From NCBI RefSeq assembly GCF_007859945.1, contig NZ_SJPQ01000002.1, positions 536,279-600,278 of the forward strand: DNA of 64,000 bases, read 5' to 3'. The notes below the pieces were generated by a model that did no database searches, was not told the origin of the DNA, and saw only the letters and a list, made by a program, of their open reading frames with translations. This DNA is from Pseudobythopirellula maris. Lineage in GTDB: Bacteria; Planctomycetota; Planctomycetia; Pirellulales; Lacipirellulaceae. This document shows, piece after piece, positions 24,086 to 32,273 of this stretch. Every line of letters starts with the position of its first letter. Within the stretch, counting starts at the first letter, position 1. A program made the translations under genes and the position numbers.

Positions 24086-24739
24086 ATGAAAACAAACCCC
24101 ATTCGACTGTTCGTCGCGGCTGTGGTTGCAGCCCTGGCATTGGGAACCGCGTCCGCTGACGCGGCCGACAAGAACGAACTCTTGCAGCCGGTTTGCTGGA
24201 ATGAGCCCGCCTGTTCCGCGTCGTGCGACGCGTGCGGCAGCGACACCTGCTACGCCGAAGCCGAAGAGGTGACGGTCGAGAAGCACTGCTGGGAAATCGA
24301 GTGCGAGAAGGTCTGCGTGCCGCCCGTGCGATTCCCCTGGCAGTGCGGCGGCAGCAAGCTGACTCTTTTCAGCTGGCTCGACAAGAATAAATGCGGCGAC
24401 TGCTGCTCCGACGGGTGTTGTAGCGAGGCGTGCTGTGCCGACGCGTGTGGTTGCGGCGCCGGTTGTTGCGAACCGACTTGCGGCTGCGACGGTTGCTGCT
24501 GCGACATGGACTGCGACTGCGAGTCGTGCCCGCCTCTCTGCTGCAACGACAAGCTCAGTTGCCTCTCGCCGTGGGGCTGCAAGGTCCGCTGCGTGCGCGA
24601 TCTTAAAAAGGAGACCTGTGAGGTCACTAAGTGCGAGTACAAGTGGGAAGTCCGCCGGCTGCCCGCTTGTTGCCCCGATGGCTGCTGCGGCGGATCGGGC
24701 TGCTGCGGCGAGTGCTGCTCGACCTGTTGTGAGCCGTGA
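24086..24739 (+). CDS. Extremely cysteine-rich exported protein
   Basis: 217 residues with signal peptide MKTNPIRLFVAAVVAALALG TASADA. I count 45 cysteines, almost one in four residues of the mature protein, mostly in CC, CxC and CxxC groups (CCSDGCCSEACCADACGCG). A Cys-poor strip, KLTLFSWLDKNK, and a C-terminal strip, CEVTKCEYKWEVRRLP, suggest a repeated two-part design. After export, the cysteines could form many disulfides or bind metal; neither is shown. It follows the porin gene closely and the pair ends at a strong terminator, so they are likely one operon. I do not recognise the family. Confidence 0.85.
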   Translation: MKTNPIRLFVAAVVAALALGTASADAADKNELLQPVCWNEPACSASCDACGSDTCYAEAEEVTVEKHCWEIECEKVCVPPVRFPWQCGGSKLTLFSWLDKNKCGDCCSDGCCSEACCADACGCGAGCCEPTCGCDGCCCDMDCDCESCPPLCCNDKLSCLSPWGCKVRCVRDLKKETCEVTKCEYKWEVRRLPACCPDGCCGGSGCCGECCSTCCEP

Positions 24740-24826: not shown

Positions 24827-25303
24827 TTAGCCGCGGCGGATCTCGATCCGCTTGGGCTGCGCCTCGGGCCGCTTGGCGATCGACACGCTCAGCACGCCGT
24901 CGGTCAGCGACGCCTCGATCGTGTCGGGGTCAACCGTCTCGGGCAGCGAGAGCCGTCGCACCGTCTTGCCGAACGTACGCTCGTTGAAGAGCGGCGTGCG
25001 GGTCGGTTGACTCTCTTCGTCCTGCGGCTCAGGCAGAGCGGGCGTCGGCCGTTCGACCGAGACGCTCAGCTCTCCCTTGTCGAAAGTGATCTCGACGTGC
25101 TCCTCCGTCACGCCGGGGGCGTCAAACTCCAGCCGCAGCCGGTCGCCCTCTTCCCAGGCGGAGACAGGCAGCCCGCCGCGCACCGCGGTGGCGACCTGCG
25201 ATGTGACCGGGCCGAAGAACTGCCGGAGCAGGCTGTCGACGTCGGCCATCGGGCCCGTGGGGAGGTAATTGCTAACTCGGTTTGTGGGGGTTGTGTGGGA
25301 CAT
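24827..25303 (-). CDS. Small heat-shock protein, Hsp20/alpha-crystallin
   Basis: ATP-independent chaperone that holds unfolding proteins. 158 residues. The alpha-crystallin domain runs from about residue 48 to 155: VSAWEEGDRLRLEFDAPGVT, EEHVEITFDKGELSVSVERP, and the strand FGKTVRRLSLPETVDPDTIE ASLTDGVLSVSIAKRPEAQP. The C-terminal RIEIRRG corresponds to the I-x-I region used in oligomer assembly. A good AGGAG lies eight bases before the ATG. Single gene, convergent with the porin operon. No CIRCE-type inverted repeat was seen upstream. Confidence 0.94.
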   Translation of the reverse strand: MSHTTPTNRVSNYLPTGPMADVDSLLRQFFGPVTSQVATAVRGGLPVSAWEEGDRLRLEFDAPGVTEEHVEITFDKGELSVSVERPTPALPEPQDEESQPTRTPLFNERTFGKTVRRLSLPETVDPDTIEASLTDGVLSVSIAKRPEAQPKRIEIRRG

Positions 25304-25590
25304 GGTGTGGCTCTCCTATCGAATGGGGGTATTGATCGCCCCTGTTCGGCGGGGCGTGACTGCTGAATTGCCGGCCGAGGTAACCCAGCCGGTCGCGACA
25401 GGCTTTCAACACCTCTTAATGCAAGACCGGCGCCAATCTCCCACTAAAGACCTAAACCATTGCCTATCAATCGCTTACGGAATGTTAAGAAACGGCGAAG
25501 CACGTCAATGCAGCCATATTGGCAGCCGCAACCCCGGTTGCGGCCGAGGAGAACACACCCCAAGGGCGCCATTATGGCGCCCGTCGAGCG

Positions 25591-26085
25591 TCAGCCCTGC
25601 GAAGCGGCTGTGACCACGTAAGAACCGGCAAACAAGACCGCTGGGCGGTCCTCCGACTGCCCGGTGATCTCGACGAAGTGGTCGAGCTTCGCCTGCCCTT
25701 TTTCGGTGAGCATTTCGACGAAGTGCGAGCGGTCGACTTCGGCCACCACCCGGCAACGGGCCGCCACGGTCGTGGTCTCGATCGGCTCGTGGTACTTGAT
25801 CGAGCTGCGGCGGATGACGATGGTCCCCGCCAAGCCATACTCCTGCATCAACAAGTAGGTCATGCCCCAGCCCGCCACGGTGCAGAGCGTGTTGAGACTG
25901 CCTGCAAAGGCGGTGGCGTGGGGATTGCGGTTCGGCGCGAGCGGCATCGCCACCCAAAGCCCCGTGGCGTCACGCCGCTGGACACGCACGTCCATGTGCT
26001 CGGTGACGGGGATTTCCGCCCGGATCAGCCGTTCCAGATCGGTCAGAAGGGCCGCTCTGGCCGTTTGCGTGGTGGTCTCGGGCAT
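25591..26085 (-). CDS. Hotdog-fold thioesterase, YiiD C-terminal type
   Basis: 164 residues from MPETTTQTARAALLTDLERL; an earlier ATG at 26136 is possible. The sequence fits the putative thioesterase domain found at the C-terminus of YiiD: MPLAPNRNPHATAFAGSLNT LCTVAGWGMTYLLMQE, then SSIKYHEPIETTTVAARCRV and the closing strand FAGSYVV. The N-H-x-T-A-F-A-G-S segment is the hotdog active-site helix. It presumably hydrolyses an acyl-CoA or acyl-ACP; substrate unknown. Divergent from the YhaO/YhaN-like operon. Confidence 0.75.
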   Translation of the reverse strand: MPETTTQTARAALLTDLERLIRAEIPVTEHMDVRVQRRDATGLWVAMPLAPNRNPHATAFAGSLNTLCTVAGWGMTYLLMQEYGLAGTIVIRRSSIKYHEPIETTTVAARCRVVAEVDRSHFVEMLTEKGQAKLDHFVEITGQSEDRPAVLFAGSYVVTAASQG

Positions 26086-26427
26086 CGGGGAGCGTGTCGT
26101 CGAAACGGGGGCTAACGAGGTCGAATAGAGAAGCACCCGATGCTATCCGATCGCGTGGGCTGTCTCCATAGCGTTCACAGAGGGCCGCCTCCGGGCGCCT
26201 GCTGCCACATCGATTGGCCCGCTGCCCCCTTGCCGCGGCAGGCCGCGGCAAGAATCTGCGGAAGTTGGGAAAGCTGAAGTTGGAGTGAGCGGCCACTCTG
26301 GGTAAATTGTGCGGACCTCGTGCGAGTGCGGCGACAGCCCCGCTCGCAGCGCTTGCCCCATCATTTCCGACGGGCCGCGAGGCGACAAACGCCCGACGAC
26401 ACGACCCCACCGGCAAGGAGGCACGGG
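26086..26427. other. Divergent intergenic region with a short palindrome
   Basis: 342 nt between divergent genes. CTTGCCGCGGC and GCCGCGGCAAG form an 11-nt perfect inverted repeat around two bases at 26229-26252, without a T-run. It could be an operator. Otherwise nothing is recognised. Confidence 0.4.
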
Positions 26428-27657
26428 ATGGCCCCGCGGCAACCCCTGCGGCTGGTCCACGCCAGCGACCTACGGATCGACCGCCCCCTGTATGGACTCG
26501 CCGGCGCGCCCGACGCGATGCGCACGCGGCTGCGCGACGCGCCGCTCGAGGCGGCCGACCGCGTTTTCGATTGCGTGCTCACCGAGAACGCCGACGCGTT
26601 GCTCCTGTCGGGCGACGTGATCGACTTGCGAGCGTGCGCCCCGCGCGAACTCGTGTTTCTCGTCGAGCGATTCAAGCGGCTCGAGAACCACGGCGTGCCG
26701 GTCTTCTGGGCCGGCGGCCGGCTCGACCCGCCGAGCGCCTGGCCGAGATCGACGCCGCTGCCGGAGAATGTCACGGTCTTCCCCGCCGGCCGTGTCGACA
26801 CGCACCCGCTGGTGCGCAACGGCCAAACGATCGCCGTCGTGCAGGGCGTCAGCCGGCCCGAAGACGCCGAGATCGACGCCAGCGGTTTCCACCGCGACGC
26901 GCACGGCAATTTCACCGTGGGTGTCGCCTACGGCACGAGCGACGCCGCGGGCAAGGAAGGGGACCGCGTCGACTACATGGCCCTGGGCGGACGCGTGCGT
27001 CGCGCCACCGTGGACCACGAGCCGGGCGTCGCCCACTTCGCCGGCTCGCCGCAGGGCCGCAACCCGCGCGAGGCGGGCCCCTCGGGCTGCACCGTGGTGC
27101 AGGTCGACGAGGAGGGCAAAACAAAGACACGGTTCGTCGCGACCGACTCGATCCGCTGGGCCGAGGAGTCGCTCGAGTTCACGGCCGGCACGACCGCCGA
27201 CCAGCTCAAGTCGCGGCTCCGCGAACGGCTCGACAAGCTCGTGGCCAAGACCAAGGGGGTCGACCTGCTGGTCACCTGGCGTTTGCACGGCGCCGGCCCG
27301 TTGGTGGTCGAACTGCGTGAGGAAGGCTTGGCCGGCGAGTTGCTCGCCGACTTGCAAGGCCGCACGAATCTCAACAGCCAATACTGCTGGAGCTACGCGC
27401 TCGCCTGCCACGACCCGTACGAGCCGCCGCTCGAGCTGCTCGACCAAGAGACGATCCTCGGCGACCTGCTGCGACAAACCGGGGTGCTGCGGCGCAACGA
27501 GGCGTTCGTCTTGGACCTTGGCGACATGCTCCCCAAGCCGCTGCCCGATCCTTCGCTCGCCGACTTCGCCAAAGACCGCGACCACGAAGAGCGTGACGAC
27601 CTGTACAACCGCGCCGCCAAACTCGGCGTCGCCCTGATGACGGAGGGCGAGCGATGA
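26428..27657 (+). CDS. YhaO/SbcD-like metallophosphoesterase lacking its metal-binding histidines
   Basis: 409 residues; ATG at 26428 is preceded by AAGGAGG. The overall match is to the Mre11/SbcD/YhaO calcineurin-like nucleases: LVHASDLRIDRPLYGL, LLLSGDVIDL, VPVFWAGGRLDPP, YMALGGRVRRATV and FAGSPQGRNPREAGPSGC line up with the family blocks in order. The expected DxH is D14-L-R16, the expected GNHD is G-G-R98-L-D, and the expected GHxH is G-G-R189-V-R191. Thus the key histidines are replaced, mostly by arginine. Only the Asp residues of the first two motifs remain. I infer a catalytically inactive scaffold or DNA-binding subunit. It overlaps the ATPase gene by four bases (ATGA), so the two are translationally coupled. 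Confidence 0.85.
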   Translation: MAPRQPLRLVHASDLRIDRPLYGLAGAPDAMRTRLRDAPLEAADRVFDCVLTENADALLLSGDVIDLRACAPRELVFLVERFKRLENHGVPVFWAGGRLDPPSAWPRSTPLPENVTVFPAGRVDTHPLVRNGQTIAVVQGVSRPEDAEIDASGFHRDAHGNFTVGVAYGTSDAAGKEGDRVDYMALGGRVRRATVDHEPGVAHFAGSPQGRNPREAGPSGCTVVQVDEEGKTKTRFVATDSIRWAEESLEFTAGTTADQLKSRLRERLDKLVAKTKGVDLLVTWRLHGAGPLVVELREEGLAGELLADLQGRTNLNSQYCWSYALACHDPYEPPLELLDQETILGDLLRQTGVLRRNEAFVLDLGDMLPKPLPDPSLADFAKDRDHEERDDLYNRAAKLGVALMTEGER

Positions 27658-30600
27658 AACTCACCGACCTGCAAGTCGACGGCTTCGGCGTTTGGACCGG
27701 CCTCGAGCTGCGGCGCCTCTCGCCCGAGGTGACCGTGTTCTACGGCCCCAACGAGGCCGGCAAGACAACGCTGCTCAATTTCCTGCGGGCGATGTTCTAC
27801 GGCCTGGGCGCCGAACGGCGCGAGCAGTACCTGCCCCCGCTGGGCGGCGGCAAGCCGGGCGGCAGGCTCGGCCTGGCGGGCGACGACGGACCGTTCGACG
27901 CGCTGCGGCACATCGAGCGCGGCGTCGACGACCGCGGCCGCGTCGTCGTGCGGCTGCCCGACGGCGAAGAGCACGGCGACCGCCTGCTGCGCGAGGGGCT
28001 CGAGGGGGTCGACGAGCGGACTTACAACAACGTCTTCTCGGTCGGGCTGGACGAGATCAACGAGCTCGGCGCGCTCGAGGGCGCCGAGGCGGCGATGTGG
28101 ATCTACCGGCTCACCTCGGGCCTCGACAGCGTGTCGCTGTACGACGTGATCCAAGGCCTGCACAAGAGCCGCCGCCGCTTGCTCGACGAACCGGGCAAAC
28201 CATCGGAGGCGGCCGAGCTGCTCGCCAAGCGCGAGCGGCTGCAGAACGACATCGGCGAGCTGACCCTGTCGAGCCGGGCGTGGTCGAAGCTCTCGATCGA
28301 AGTGGCCGAGGCCGACGCCCAGGCCGGGCAGCTCAAGAGCGAGATCAAGGAGCTCGAGGCGCGCGTGCGGCGGCTCGAGATCGCCCGCGACCTGAAACCC
28401 CGCTGGGCCGACCGCGAGCGTGTTTCCGAAGAGTTGGTCCGCTTCGCCGGGCTGCACCAGCTGGGCTCGAACGCCATCGGCCAGCTCGACGAGCTCAACG
28501 AGCAGATCGAGGAGCACGAGCGTCAGCGGGCGATCTTGCGTGGCCAACGCAAGCAGCTCCACGAGGAGGTCCAAGAGCTCGGCGTCAACGACGCGCTGCG
28601 CCGCAGTTGCTGCCGGCTCGACGCCCTCGGCGAGCAGCAGGAGTGGCTCGTGTCGCTCGAGCGCCAGATCGCCGAAGCCTGCTCCGAGGCCGACCGTGTC
28701 GAGGCGCTGCTCGCCGCCGAGCGGACGCGGCTGGGACGGCTGTGGCGTCGCGACGAGCCGCGGACGACCGACGACGAAGAGCCGCGTCGCAAGCGGCGCG
28801 AGGAACGGTCCACCGACCGCGACAGCGAGAGCCGCGAAGAGCGCCGTGCCCGCCGCGAGAAGAGCGAGCGTCGCAACCGTGTCGACCTCCGCGAGGACGA
28901 AGCCTCGTCTTCCCGTCGCGAGAGCACGCCGCGTCGCAAGTCGGCCGGCCAAGCCGCGGCCCTGCCCGAAGAAGACCTCATCGAGCGGCTCACCCCGAAG
29001 GCGGCGGCCCTCGAGTCGGCGCGCGAGACCGTCACCGAGGCGCGACGCGACCTCGACAACAAGCGTGGCGCCGAGCTGAAGTACTCGTCCCAGATCGAGT
29101 CGACCCTCACCTCGGGCGACAAGCTCGGCCTGCCGACCGACATCGAAGAGGCGGGCGACCTGGTGGCCCAGCTCCGCACGCGGCAGAAGGCCGAGCAGAA
29201 GGCCGAGCAACTGCGGCGCCAGATCCGCGACGTCGAGCGGCGACAGCGTGACCTAGCCGACCGGCAGCTGATGCCGATCGAGCCGTACCTGCTGCTGCTG
29301 GGCGTGTCGGTCGCCGGCGCGATGATGGTCGCTTACCCGTTCGTCAGCGCGTCGGCCGAGCCGGGCGGCTTCATGACGCTGCTCGGCCTGGTGGCGATGG
29401 GCGCCCCGCCGTTGCTCTACTTCTTCGTGAGCGACAACGCGGCCGAGAGCCTCGAATCGTGCGAGCGTGAGGCGGAGATCGCCGAGCGCGAGCTGAAGGA
29501 AGCCGAGCGCGAGCTCGACCTGCTGAACGACGAGCTGCCGCTGCAGCAGGGCGCTGTCGCCTCGCGGCTGCAGCACGCCGAGCGGCACCTCGACGAGCTC
29601 GAGAAGATGCTGCCCGTGGAGACCGAACGCCGCCGGGCGAACCAGCAGGTCGAGGAATCGGGGCGGTTCCTCACCGAAGCCGAAGAAGAGCAGGCCGCCG
29701 CCGAGAAGGAGTGGCGTTCAGCGCTCCGCTCGCTCGGCCTGAGCGACCGGATGAGCCCGAGCGACCTCACGCTGCTCGTCGCCCAGCGTCAGCAACTCGA
29801 GGAGCTCGAGTCGCGCGCCGTCCTGCGCCGCGAAGAGGCCGACCACCGCCAGCGTGAGCACGAACGGATCGTCGACCGCATCACGGCGCTCGCCGAGGAG
29901 GCCGATCTCGTCCTGCTGACCGACGCCGAGGAGCCCGCCGGCCCGGTCCCCCAGCTCGAGCACCTGCTGAGCGAGCGGCGCCTGCAACAGTCGCGCATCG
30001 ACCACCGCAAGAAACTCATCGAGCGCAGCAAGCAGCTCAAGATCAAGCAGCACAAGCACGGCAAGGCGTCGCAGCGGCTCGAAGAGCAGCGTGAGGCGAT
30101 GTTCCTCGCCGCCTCGGTCGAGAGCGAAGAAGAGTTCCGCCAGCTCGCCGACGAGTTGGCCGAGGCCTCGCGGCTGGTCGAGCGCCGCGAGCGGCTCACC
30201 CGCGAGATCGCCGCCGCAATCGGCCCCAAGAGCAGCGAAGAAGACTACGCCGAGCTGCTGGGCGCCGAGCAGATCCTGCGGCTCGACCGCATGTTCGACG
30301 AACTGACCGACGAGCACGCCGCGCTCGAGTCGCGACTGCAAGAAACGCTCGCCCGCCGCGGGTCGCTCGAGGAGCAGCGCCGCGCGATGATCGACGACAC
30401 GTCGCTCGCCGACAAGCGGGTCGAACTCGACCTGGTCGAGGCGCAGATCGAGCGGGTCCGCGACCGCTGGCGCGAGCGGGCGGCGGTGGGCCAAATGCTC
30501 GAGCTGATCCGCAGCGACTACGAGGCGAACCGCCAGCCGGAGACGCTCGTCGAGGCCTCCAAGCACCTCAACAAACTCACCGCCGGGCGTTACCCGCGGG

Positions 30601-31535
30601 TCTGGACCCCGCTGGCCGATGATGTGCTCATTGTCGAGGACCACGAGGGACGGTCGATCCCCGTGGAGAACCTCAGCCGCGGCACGCGTGAGCAGTTGTT
30701 CCTCTCGGTGCGGATGGCGATCGTGGCGATGTACGCCCGCCGCGGGGTGCAGCTGCCGATGATCCTCGACGACGTGCTGGTGAACTTCGACGCGGGCCGC
30801 GCCAAGGCCGCCGCCCGCGTGCTCACCGACTTCGCCCGCCAGGGTCACCAGTTGCTGCTGTTCACGTGCCACGAGCACGTGTGGGAGATGTTCCGCGAAC
30901 TGGGAACCGACTGCCGCCGCCTGCCGAACCGCTACGCCGGCGAGGAGCCGCTCGAGCCCGAACCGCTCGAAGAGGCGATCACCGAAGAGACCCCAGCGGA
31001 GCCCAATGAGGATCTGATCGAGGAAGTCGTCGAAGAGATCGCCGAGGAAGTCGTCGAAGAGCCCGCGCCCGTTGAACCCGTCATCGAAGAGCCGGCGCCC
31101 GCCTACGTGGCTGCGGTGTACGAGGACCTCGAGCCCCCGACCCGCGTTCGCACCGTCACCACGACCGAGGTGGTCGAAGTCGAAAGCGAAGCAGAGCCGT
31201 TTACGGAACCCGTCGAGACCGAGCTCGAGCTCGAGACAACCGTCGCCGAGTACCTAGAGACGCCGATCGACTGGGCCGAGCGCGAAGAGCGCCCGCTCGA
31301 TCCGCCCGGCGAACCGGTCGAGGTCGAGTACGCCCGCGTGGGTGGTCAGCGGGCGCCACGGGCCGAACAAGAGCTTCCGCTCACGGCCCCCGAGCGACAC
31401 GAAACGCCGTACGAAGAGGAAAGCCCATACCCCAACGGCGACTCCTGGCTCGCCGAAGCCGAGGCCGAGTACCGGCTCGACGAGAACCGCAGCGTGATGG
31501 AAGAGCTGCTGTGGGACGGCGGCGACGGGCGGTGA
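27654..31535 (+). CDS. YhaN-like SMC/Rad50-type ATPase with membrane hairpin and acidic tail
   Basis: 1293 residues. The start MKLTDLQVDGFGVWTGLELR has Walker A GPNEAGKTTL at 31-40. Long coiled coils follow, broken by a Ser/Arg/Glu-rich patch near 370-430 and by two hydrophobic stretches at about 544-595 (PYLLLLGVSVAGAMMVAYPF and LLGLVAMGAPPLLYFFV), as in YhaN, suggesting membrane attachment at the tip. The ATPase resumes with signature NLSRGTREQLFLSVRMAI near 1005 and Walker B LPMILDDVLVNFD near 1035. No CxxC zinc hook is seen. The last 200 residues are Glu/Pro-rich and low-complexity. It is the partner of the YhaO-like gene by a four-base overlap. A role in DNA processing at the membrane is inferred. 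Confidence 0.88.
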   Translation: MKLTDLQVDGFGVWTGLELRRLSPEVTVFYGPNEAGKTTLLNFLRAMFYGLGAERREQYLPPLGGGKPGGRLGLAGDDGPFDALRHIERGVDDRGRVVVRLPDGEEHGDRLLREGLEGVDERTYNNVFSVGLDEINELGALEGAEAAMWIYRLTSGLDSVSLYDVIQGLHKSRRRLLDEPGKPSEAAELLAKRERLQNDIGELTLSSRAWSKLSIEVAEADAQAGQLKSEIKELEARVRRLEIARDLKPRWADRERVSEELVRFAGLHQLGSNAIGQLDELNEQIEEHERQRAILRGQRKQLHEEVQELGVNDALRRSCCRLDALGEQQEWLVSLERQIAEACSEADRVEALLAAERTRLGRLWRRDEPRTTDDEEPRRKRREERSTDRDSESREERRARREKSERRNRVDLREDEASSSRRESTPRRKSAGQAAALPEEDLIERLTPKAAALESARETVTEARRDLDNKRGAELKYSSQIESTLTSGDKLGLPTDIEEAGDLVAQLRTRQKAEQKAEQLRRQIRDVERRQRDLADRQLMPIEPYLLLLGVSVAGAMMVAYPFVSASAEPGGFMTLLGLVAMGAPPLLYFFVSDNAAESLESCEREAEIAERELKEAERELDLLNDELPLQQGAVASRLQHAERHLDELEKMLPVETERRRANQQVEESGRFLTEAEEEQAAAEKEWRSALRSLGLSDRMSPSDLTLLVAQRQQLEELESRAVLRREEADHRQREHERIVDRITALAEEADLVLLTDAEEPAGPVPQLEHLLSERRLQQSRIDHRKKLIERSKQLKIKQHKHGKASQRLEEQREAMFLAASVESEEEFRQLADELAEASRLVERRERLTREIAAAIGPKSSEEDYAELLGAEQILRLDRMFDELTDEHAALESRLQETLARRGSLEEQRRAMIDDTSLADKRVELDLVEAQIERVRDRWRERAAVGQMLELIRSDYEANRQPETLVEASKHLNKLTAGRYPRVWTPLADDVLIVEDHEGRSIPVENLSRGTREQLFLSVRMAIVAMYARRGVQLPMILDDVLVNFDAGRAKAAARVLTDFARQGHQLLLFTCHEHVWEMFRELGTDCRRLPNRYAGEEPLEPEPLEEAITEETPAEPNEDLIEEVVEEIAEEVVEEPAPVEPVIEEPAPAYVAAVYEDLEPPTRVRTVTTTEVVEVESEAEPFTEPVETELELETTVAEYLETPIDWAEREERPLDPPGEPVEVEYARVGGQRAPRAEQELPLTAPERHETPYEEESPYPNGDSWLAEAEAEYRLDENRSVMEELLWDGGDGR

Positions 31536-31868: not shown

Positions 31869-32273
31869 ATGAAGTCATTCGAGGTATATTCCGGATACCG
31901 ACAGTTCTACGTGGCGGACGCAGGCATTGATCCTGACGCGCCCGAGAATTGGACCGATGAGCACATTGCTCAGCGGCACAACACGCTTCGCAACATCGCC
32001 GCTCTTTGTCCGGAAGGTGACATCACGTCCAGAGTCATTGCATGTGGTCCGGACGACGAGGCCCCGCCGCACCAGGATCCCTCGGAGTTTGAAGTCGAGA
32101 CGTTCATCGAAGTACCGACAGGCAAGATTGGCGTTTACGGCTGGCCGCGCGAGCTATTCGACGAGTACACCGTAGAGCCCGGAACTTATTCGATTTTCTT
32201 CACCGGCCACGCTTTAGATCGCGTGGATGATGAAGAAGATTACTACGTCGTGCGTATCCGCAAGAGGGCCTGA
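31869..32273 (+). CDS. ComJ-like small acidic protein
   Basis: 134 residues, acidic and of lower GC than the region. MKSFEVYSGYRQFYVADAGI then NWTDEHIAQRHNTLRNIAAL matches the start of ComJ as I know it (Tyr-x-Gln-Phe-x-Val, then Trp-Thr-Asp-Glu). The end, VEPGTYSIFFTGHALDRVDD then YYVVRIRK, matches its closing strands. ComJ inhibits the DNA-entry nuclease NucA in Bacillus; related proteins elsewhere may be immunity proteins. No NucA-like nuclease or toxin gene is adjacent here. It has no signal peptide, so it should be cytoplasmic. Possibly acquired by transfer, judging from composition. Confidence 0.55.
   Translation: MKSFEVYSGYRQFYVADAGIDPDAPENWTDEHIAQRHNTLRNIAALCPEGDITSRVIACGPDDEAPPHQDPSEFEVETFIEVPTGKIGVYGWPRELFDEYTVEPGTYSIFFTGHALDRVDDEEDYYVVRIRKRA

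Follow-up and report, generated by a model that had tools for sequence, protein, structure and literature searches.

A predicted pseudo-nuclease of the Mre11/YhaO type with a remodelled metal site adjoins a Rad50-like ATPase in Pirellulales

The locus lies in a window of 64,000 nucleotides of the Pseudobythopirellula maris genome, by which we mean the whole stretch of DNA that was analysed. Two genes on the forward strand, one for a phosphoesterase and one for an ATPase, constitute the pair described here, and their features are collected in Table 1. Both open reading frames, the strong ribosome-binding site and the ATGA overlap are present as the original prediction had stated.

Table 1. Features of the gene pair, in positions of the window
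Feature	Position	Strand	Remarks
Shine-Dalgarno AAGGAGG	26415..26421	+	6 nt before the first ATG of the phosphoesterase gene
Predicted pseudo-phosphoesterase (P0001), YhaO/SbcD/Mre11 type, 409 aa	26428..27657	+	
Motif I, D14-L15-R16	26467..26475	+	D8 kept, H10 replaced by Arg; alignment with intact homologues
D63	26614..26616	+	bridging D49, kept; alignment with intact homologues
Rebuilt GNHD loop, W94-AGGRL-D100	26707..26727	+	N84 to R98, catalytic H85 to L99; Trp94 new and clade-invariant; alignment
Y168	26929..26931	+	replaces ligand H173; alignment with intact homologues
GGRV in place of GHxH	26986..26997	+	H206 to G188, H208 to V190; alignment with intact homologues
Rad50-like (YhaN/AAA_27) ATPase (P0002), 1293 aa	27654..31535	+	ATGA overlap with the preceding phosphoesterase gene
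Walker A GPNEAGKTT (ATPase)	27744..27770	+	
Two-helix hydrophobic hairpin (ATPase)	29268..29429	+	close to the middle of the coiled coil; residues ~539-592, with helices at 542-564 and from 572 in the model
ABC signature LSRGTREQ (ATPase)	30672..30695	+	
Walker B/D-loop LPMILDDVLVNFD (ATPase)	30753..30791	+	
Acidic C-terminal tail (ATPase)	30939..31532	+	residues 1096-1293, 31% Asp/Glu

The phosphoesterase has diverged beyond the reach of curated models, yet its predicted structure is confident and shows a complete fold (AlphaFold2, pLDDT 90.2). The SbcD model TIGR00619 (NCBIfam) scores it at 21.9 bits, below the cut-off of 77.65, and Pfam Metallophos matches it with an E-value of 0.075; the intact YhaO of Enterococcus faecalis also falls under the TIGR00619 cut-off (68 bits). 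Searching the PDB with the model returned only Mre11 or SbcD among the 39 top-scoring entries (Z 24.4-20.4), with matches that span the nuclease and the capping domain, while the best phosphoesterase of any other kind scored Z 17.9. MjMre11 was aligned to the model over 286 residues (Z 24.4, rmsd 3.9 Å), calcineurin-like nuclease and capping domain included. The Mre11/YhaO-type fold, which had been proposed from the letters alone, is confirmed by the predicted structure and its PDB matches. This Mre11 fold of nuclease and capping domains, together with an ATPase of Rad50-type heads and coiled coil, is common to the Pirellulales pair and to SbcD-SbcC or Mre11-Rad50.

Residues of the metal site were numbered after P. 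furiosus Mre11 and located by alignment with intact homologues. All seven ligands (D8, H10, D49, N84, H173, H206 and H208) are present in the 10 aligned intact paralogues; in the 1II7 structure the first metal is held by D8, H10, D49 and H208 and the second by D49, N84, H173 and H206. The catalytic H85 contacts the phosphate and is essential for nuclease activity (PMC4996933). Alignment with intact and Pirellulales homologues confirmed the loss of the metal site in the window protein, where two of the seven ligands are kept, D8 (as D14) and D49 (as D63). The other five are exchanged (H10 for R16, N84 for R98, H173 for Y168, H206 for G188 and H208 for V190) and H85 is replaced by L99. The original prediction of a metal site without its histidines was therefore right in substance, but its account of arginines standing in for histidines does not hold, since the ancestral losses are N84, H85 and H206, the last to Gly. 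It had read the GHxH block as GGRVR; the block is GGRV, and its two ligands became Gly and Val, neither of them Arg. Its list of lost histidines was also incomplete, the histidine of LHT (now Tyr168) having been overlooked.

Across 81 aligned Pirellulales homologues, neither H85 nor H206 is kept in any, N84 is kept in a single one, a fragment at a contig end, and the complete second-metal set is found in none. The first-metal set D8/H10/D49/H208 is complete in 54 and incomplete in 27, and it is also gone in the genus of the window and its nearest relatives. The pattern at H85, H206 (0/81) and N84 (1/81) indicates that the second-metal site and the catalytic histidine were lost in the common ancestor. 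Judged from the alignment, Arg at H10 is a later change, limited to the window protein's close relatives and a few others; the arginines are late and incidental. The position of N84 carries Arg, Glu, Ala, Gln, Asp and others in the clade and is unconstrained.

New residues have become fixed in the degenerate proteins. Trp94 occurs in 100% of them and Gly188 in 99%, as against 0% of the intact proteins for both, and the two sit in the two loops that formerly carried ligands. Pro72, Trp105, Pro106, Trp284 and Gly400 are likewise conserved in the degenerate clade and absent, or nearly so, from intact relatives. The old metal site has been rebuilt, probably for another use and perhaps with its pocket closed. 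D14, D63 and D100 are conserved as well, and with them the protein may still bind a single metal weakly. An enzyme that still acts as a phosphoesterase or nuclease, with a rebuilt or single-metal centre made of these aspartates and new side chains, would also be consistent with the 54 relatives whose first-metal set is complete. We nevertheless consider it unlikely, as the catalytic histidine and the second-metal set are gone in 81 of 81 homologues, the residue at N84 is free to vary, the window protein is without H10, N84, H85, H173, H206 and H208, and Trp94 and Gly188 now occupy the loops.

Pairwise dN/dS lies at 0.05-0.16 in the phosphoesterase gene and at 0.05-0.17 in the ATPase gene, low in both. 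Ligands had been predicted to be lost without decay of the gene, and this is borne out by the dN/dS of the phosphoesterase, by orthologues with open frames and by the adjoining ATPase. A phosphoesterase that is losing its function and is passively kept beside a useful ATPase could account for the loss of first-metal ligands that is ongoing in several lineages (27 of 81 incomplete). Such a remnant is, however, barely credible in the face of these dN/dS values, the open frames of the orthologues, the new invariant residues and the confident, complete predicted fold. Simple decay was rejected on account of dN/dS, the new invariant residues and retention throughout the order, and the phosphoesterase is best described, at the level of sequence, as an old, selected and remodelled pseudo-nuclease subfamily.

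The ATPase matches Pfam AAA_27 with 52.3 bits (cut-off 22). Inspection of its motifs confirmed the Walker A, signature and Walker B that had been reported as intact in the 1293-residue protein, the Walker B running into a D-loop, and added an H-loop, FTCHEH. The two-helix hydrophobic hairpin described in its coiled coil is present, with a hydropathy of 1.8-2.8 and a relative position of 0.40, and hydropathy and helix prediction make it a probable membrane anchor. In the model, the coiled-coil segments on either side are similar in length (about residues 185-541 and 572-959), which would place the hairpin near the apex, in a model whose overall arrangement is uncertain and whose overall shape is not to be trusted (pTM 0.41). 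A CxxC zinc hook between the head halves is absent from all 58 degenerate-clade ATPases; what the Pirellulales ATPase has in place of the SbcC/Rad50 hook is the hydrophobic hairpin, about midway along the coiled coil. The acidic tail, predicted at about 200 residues, measures 198, with 31% Asp/Glu as against 5.6% Lys/Arg. It belongs to the degenerate clade, with a median length of 152 aa in Pirellulales, compared to 10-19 aa in the intact types; in L190, a degenerate pair from family f22 of the class, the tail is 12 aa.

Orthologues of the phosphoesterase are found in 41 of the 44 genomes of the window's family, and matches in 162 of the 197 genomes of the order; some of the latter are weak or are to intact paralogues, and in family f7 no match is better than weak. 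The ATPase lies directly 3' of every homologue for which downstream DNA is present, a few contigs ending before it, and the degenerate pair is mostly a single copy per genome. A profile search of the class and phylum gave intact relatives and a few further degenerate proteins in another family of the class.

Three kinds of pair can be distinguished. In the first, an intact nuclease accompanies a soluble ATPase without hairpin; many planctomycetes have it, in some cases in addition to a degenerate pair. In the second, an intact nuclease accompanies a hairpin ATPase, as in other planctomycetes (L180-L184, L186), Deinococcus, the archaeon Natrinema and Enterococcus faecalis. The third, that of the window, combines a degenerate nuclease with a hairpin ATPase, and most genomes of the window's family have the degenerate pair only. 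An intact soluble YhaO-YhaN and the degenerate hairpin pair were seen in the same genome in some Pirellulales (L049-L053, L102-L105, L108). The pair shares with YhaO-YhaN the order of phosphoesterase and then ATPase, the Mre11 type of the former and, in the AAA_27 ATPase, a hydrophobic segment within the coiled coil; in Enterococcus faecalis (L225) the order is YlbF, YhaO, YhaN and an HD-domain protein. The differences are that in YhaO the metal ligands are complete and the catalytic histidine is present, and that YhaN is without the long acidic tail. From SbcD/Mre11, too, the degenerate clade is set apart by the lack of both the catalytic histidine and the second-metal ligands. An intact hairpin YhaO-YhaN pair also follows three co-directional hypothetical genes on a Deinococcus actinosclerus plasmid (L223, 2860-9839).

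The hairpin keeps the same relative position (0.40 ± 0.02) beside degenerate and intact nucleases, an agreement that is probably due to inheritance and speaks against a gain along with the loss of the nuclease. Hairpin ATPases adjoin intact nucleases in several phyla, which rules out that the hairpin arose with nuclease loss; it is not tied to that loss. What is new here is the degenerate site and not the hairpin, which also occurs with intact nucleases. The change of the metal site, for its part, has a single origin. In a maximum-likelihood tree of the ATPase heads, 31 of 31 sampled degenerate-pair ATPases are set apart from the intact types by a branch supported at 100/99. Leaving the metal-site columns out of the phosphoesterase alignment gave a tree in which the 33 degenerate proteins are divided from the 25 intact ones with a support of 99/97. 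Both trees are unrooted, and the direction, loss and not gain, is taken from the intact site that archaeal and all other Mre11 have in common. In the phosphoesterase tree the degenerate branch that splits off deepest consists of L190 and L202, while L178 and L179, both from f22, fall among the Pirellulales proteins. These last two are degenerate phosphoesterases whose ATPases are without hairpin, possibly through transfer and further remodelling; no ABC signature was found in the ATPase of L179, and helix-hairpin-helix-like repeats seem to come after it.

A second, intact nuclease was looked for in the genome of the window. The SbcD model finds the window protein only, below the cut-off, and a profile of intact YhaO finds no further copy, so that neither gives an intact backup nuclease in an assembly of 6 contigs and 96.5% completeness, in which an overlooked gene is unlikely but possible. 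The same genome holds UvrD-type helicases, including two large adjacent reading frames, of 1119 and 1194 aa, which together may encode an enzyme like AddAB.

Among the 76 degenerate loci with enough upstream sequence, a PcrA/UvrD-type helicase lies directly upstream on the same strand in 11, drawn from six families of the order (L017/L055, L018/L044, L024, L028, L065, L067, L072, L074, L076, L082, L090), as against none of the nine intact paralogue loci. Three more f15 loci (L079, L080, L084) have the helicase on the opposite side of the pair, while in the window's genome a UvrD-type helicase lies elsewhere, not adjoining the pair. Our survey of degenerate loci found no other neighbour recurring across families. 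The structural matches of the ATPase model include SMC, MukB and the Wadjet protein JetC. These matches, the single origin and near order-wide retention of the pair, and its clade-specific acidic tail would suit a membrane-tethered organiser of the SMC/condensin type that anchors or compacts the nucleoid at the membrane and has no part in damage repair. Such matches are, however, expected for any coiled-coil ATPase of the Rad50/SMC type, and a neighbour of the PcrA/UvrD type is rather a sign of repair or replication; we regard a pure chromosome organiser as rather improbable. An anti-phage defence module of the Rad50/SMC-like kind (Lamassu, Gabija-like) was suggested by weak PADLOC matches, which cover only the P-loop and signature regions of the ATPase (PbeC 9.2e-07, LmuB 0.003). 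The phosphoesterase matches no PADLOC family, and the near-universal, mostly single-copy presence in the order is unlike patchy defence islands, making defence very unlikely; the candidate was rejected for want of specific PADLOC support.

We favour, as the probable reading, a Pirellulales complex of the YhaO-YhaN kind (Mre11-Rad50-type) with a pseudo-nuclease for its Mre11-like subunit, the whole acting as a membrane-tethered, ATP-driven DNA clamp with a pseudo-Mre11 scaffold. The hairpin would take the position that the zinc hook has in Rad50, at the far end of the coiled coil, and would anchor that end in the membrane. The two ATPase heads would bind ATP, engage and clamp DNA, and a dimer of the pseudo-Mre11 would bridge them as in Mre11-Rad50, shaping or closing the DNA-binding groove without cutting. 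DNA could thus be held at or near the membrane, probably for helicase-assisted repair or restart, in keeping with the PcrA/UvrD-type neighbour, or for chromosome organisation, and any cutting would be left to other nucleases. DNA binding, membrane insertion and cellular role are what we infer for the pair. The non-nucleolytic, membrane-linked DNA machine of the original prediction has the same standing, strengthened by the PcrA/UvrD-type helicase neighbour in six families.

Known systems offer parallels. The SbcCD mutant H84Q, altered at the catalytic histidine and employed as a nuclease-deficient form, has an ATPase activity that is only ~15% lower (PMC6265447), so the ATP cycle of such a complex can go on when catalysis is absent. 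Structural end-tethering functions are described for MRX (PMC7260605). Eukaryotic replicative DNA polymerases have B-subunits, related to PolD DP1 but inactivated, that are likewise calcineurin-like phosphodiesterases without catalytic motifs and are thought to have become scaffolds (PMC4996933); these subunits differ in being eukaryotic, in belonging to a polymerase complex and in their other accessory domains. A bolder form of the preferred reading is that in the Pirellulales a membrane-anchored Mre11-Rad50-type nuclease was converted into a nuclease-free, ATP-driven tether between DNA and membrane. It would be a machine dedicated to organising the chromosome or to scaffolding repair, to whose structure the pseudo-Mre11 subunit is essential. 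This we hold to be plausible, with the balance slightly against it.

The open-access literature that was searched gave nothing on the function of YhaO/YhaN, on a pseudo-Mre11 of this kind or on planctomycete SbcCD. Mre11-Rad50 has both structural and nucleolytic functions, which are commonly told apart by means of point mutants. Here this separation seems to be the work of evolution, with a whole order keeping the scaffold and discarding the nuclease. A cutting centre that has been dismantled and rebuilt, and that a whole order keeps with its adjoining ATPase, suggests a machine for holding DNA and not for cutting it. Botrimarina and Bythopirellula include sequenced isolates that carry the pair, in which the structural function could be studied on its own. 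The pair also draws attention to a widespread, little-studied class of Rad50-like ATPases in which the zinc hook of Rad50 is replaced by a hydrophobic hairpin.

As for the surroundings of the pair in the window, a 134-aa protein encoded directly downstream of the ATPase (31869-32273) matches ComJ, a family of nuclease inhibitors, weakly (E 0.014), and no ComJ-like neighbour was found beside other copies of the pair. Genes for an HSP20 and a YiiD_C-type thioesterase lie upstream (24827-26136), and comparison of neighbours showed them to be common only to Botrimarina-like relatives. Further upstream, a reading frame of 217 aa (24086-24739) is very rich in cysteine, with CC, CGC and SCC repeats, and probably encodes a small secreted or surface protein.
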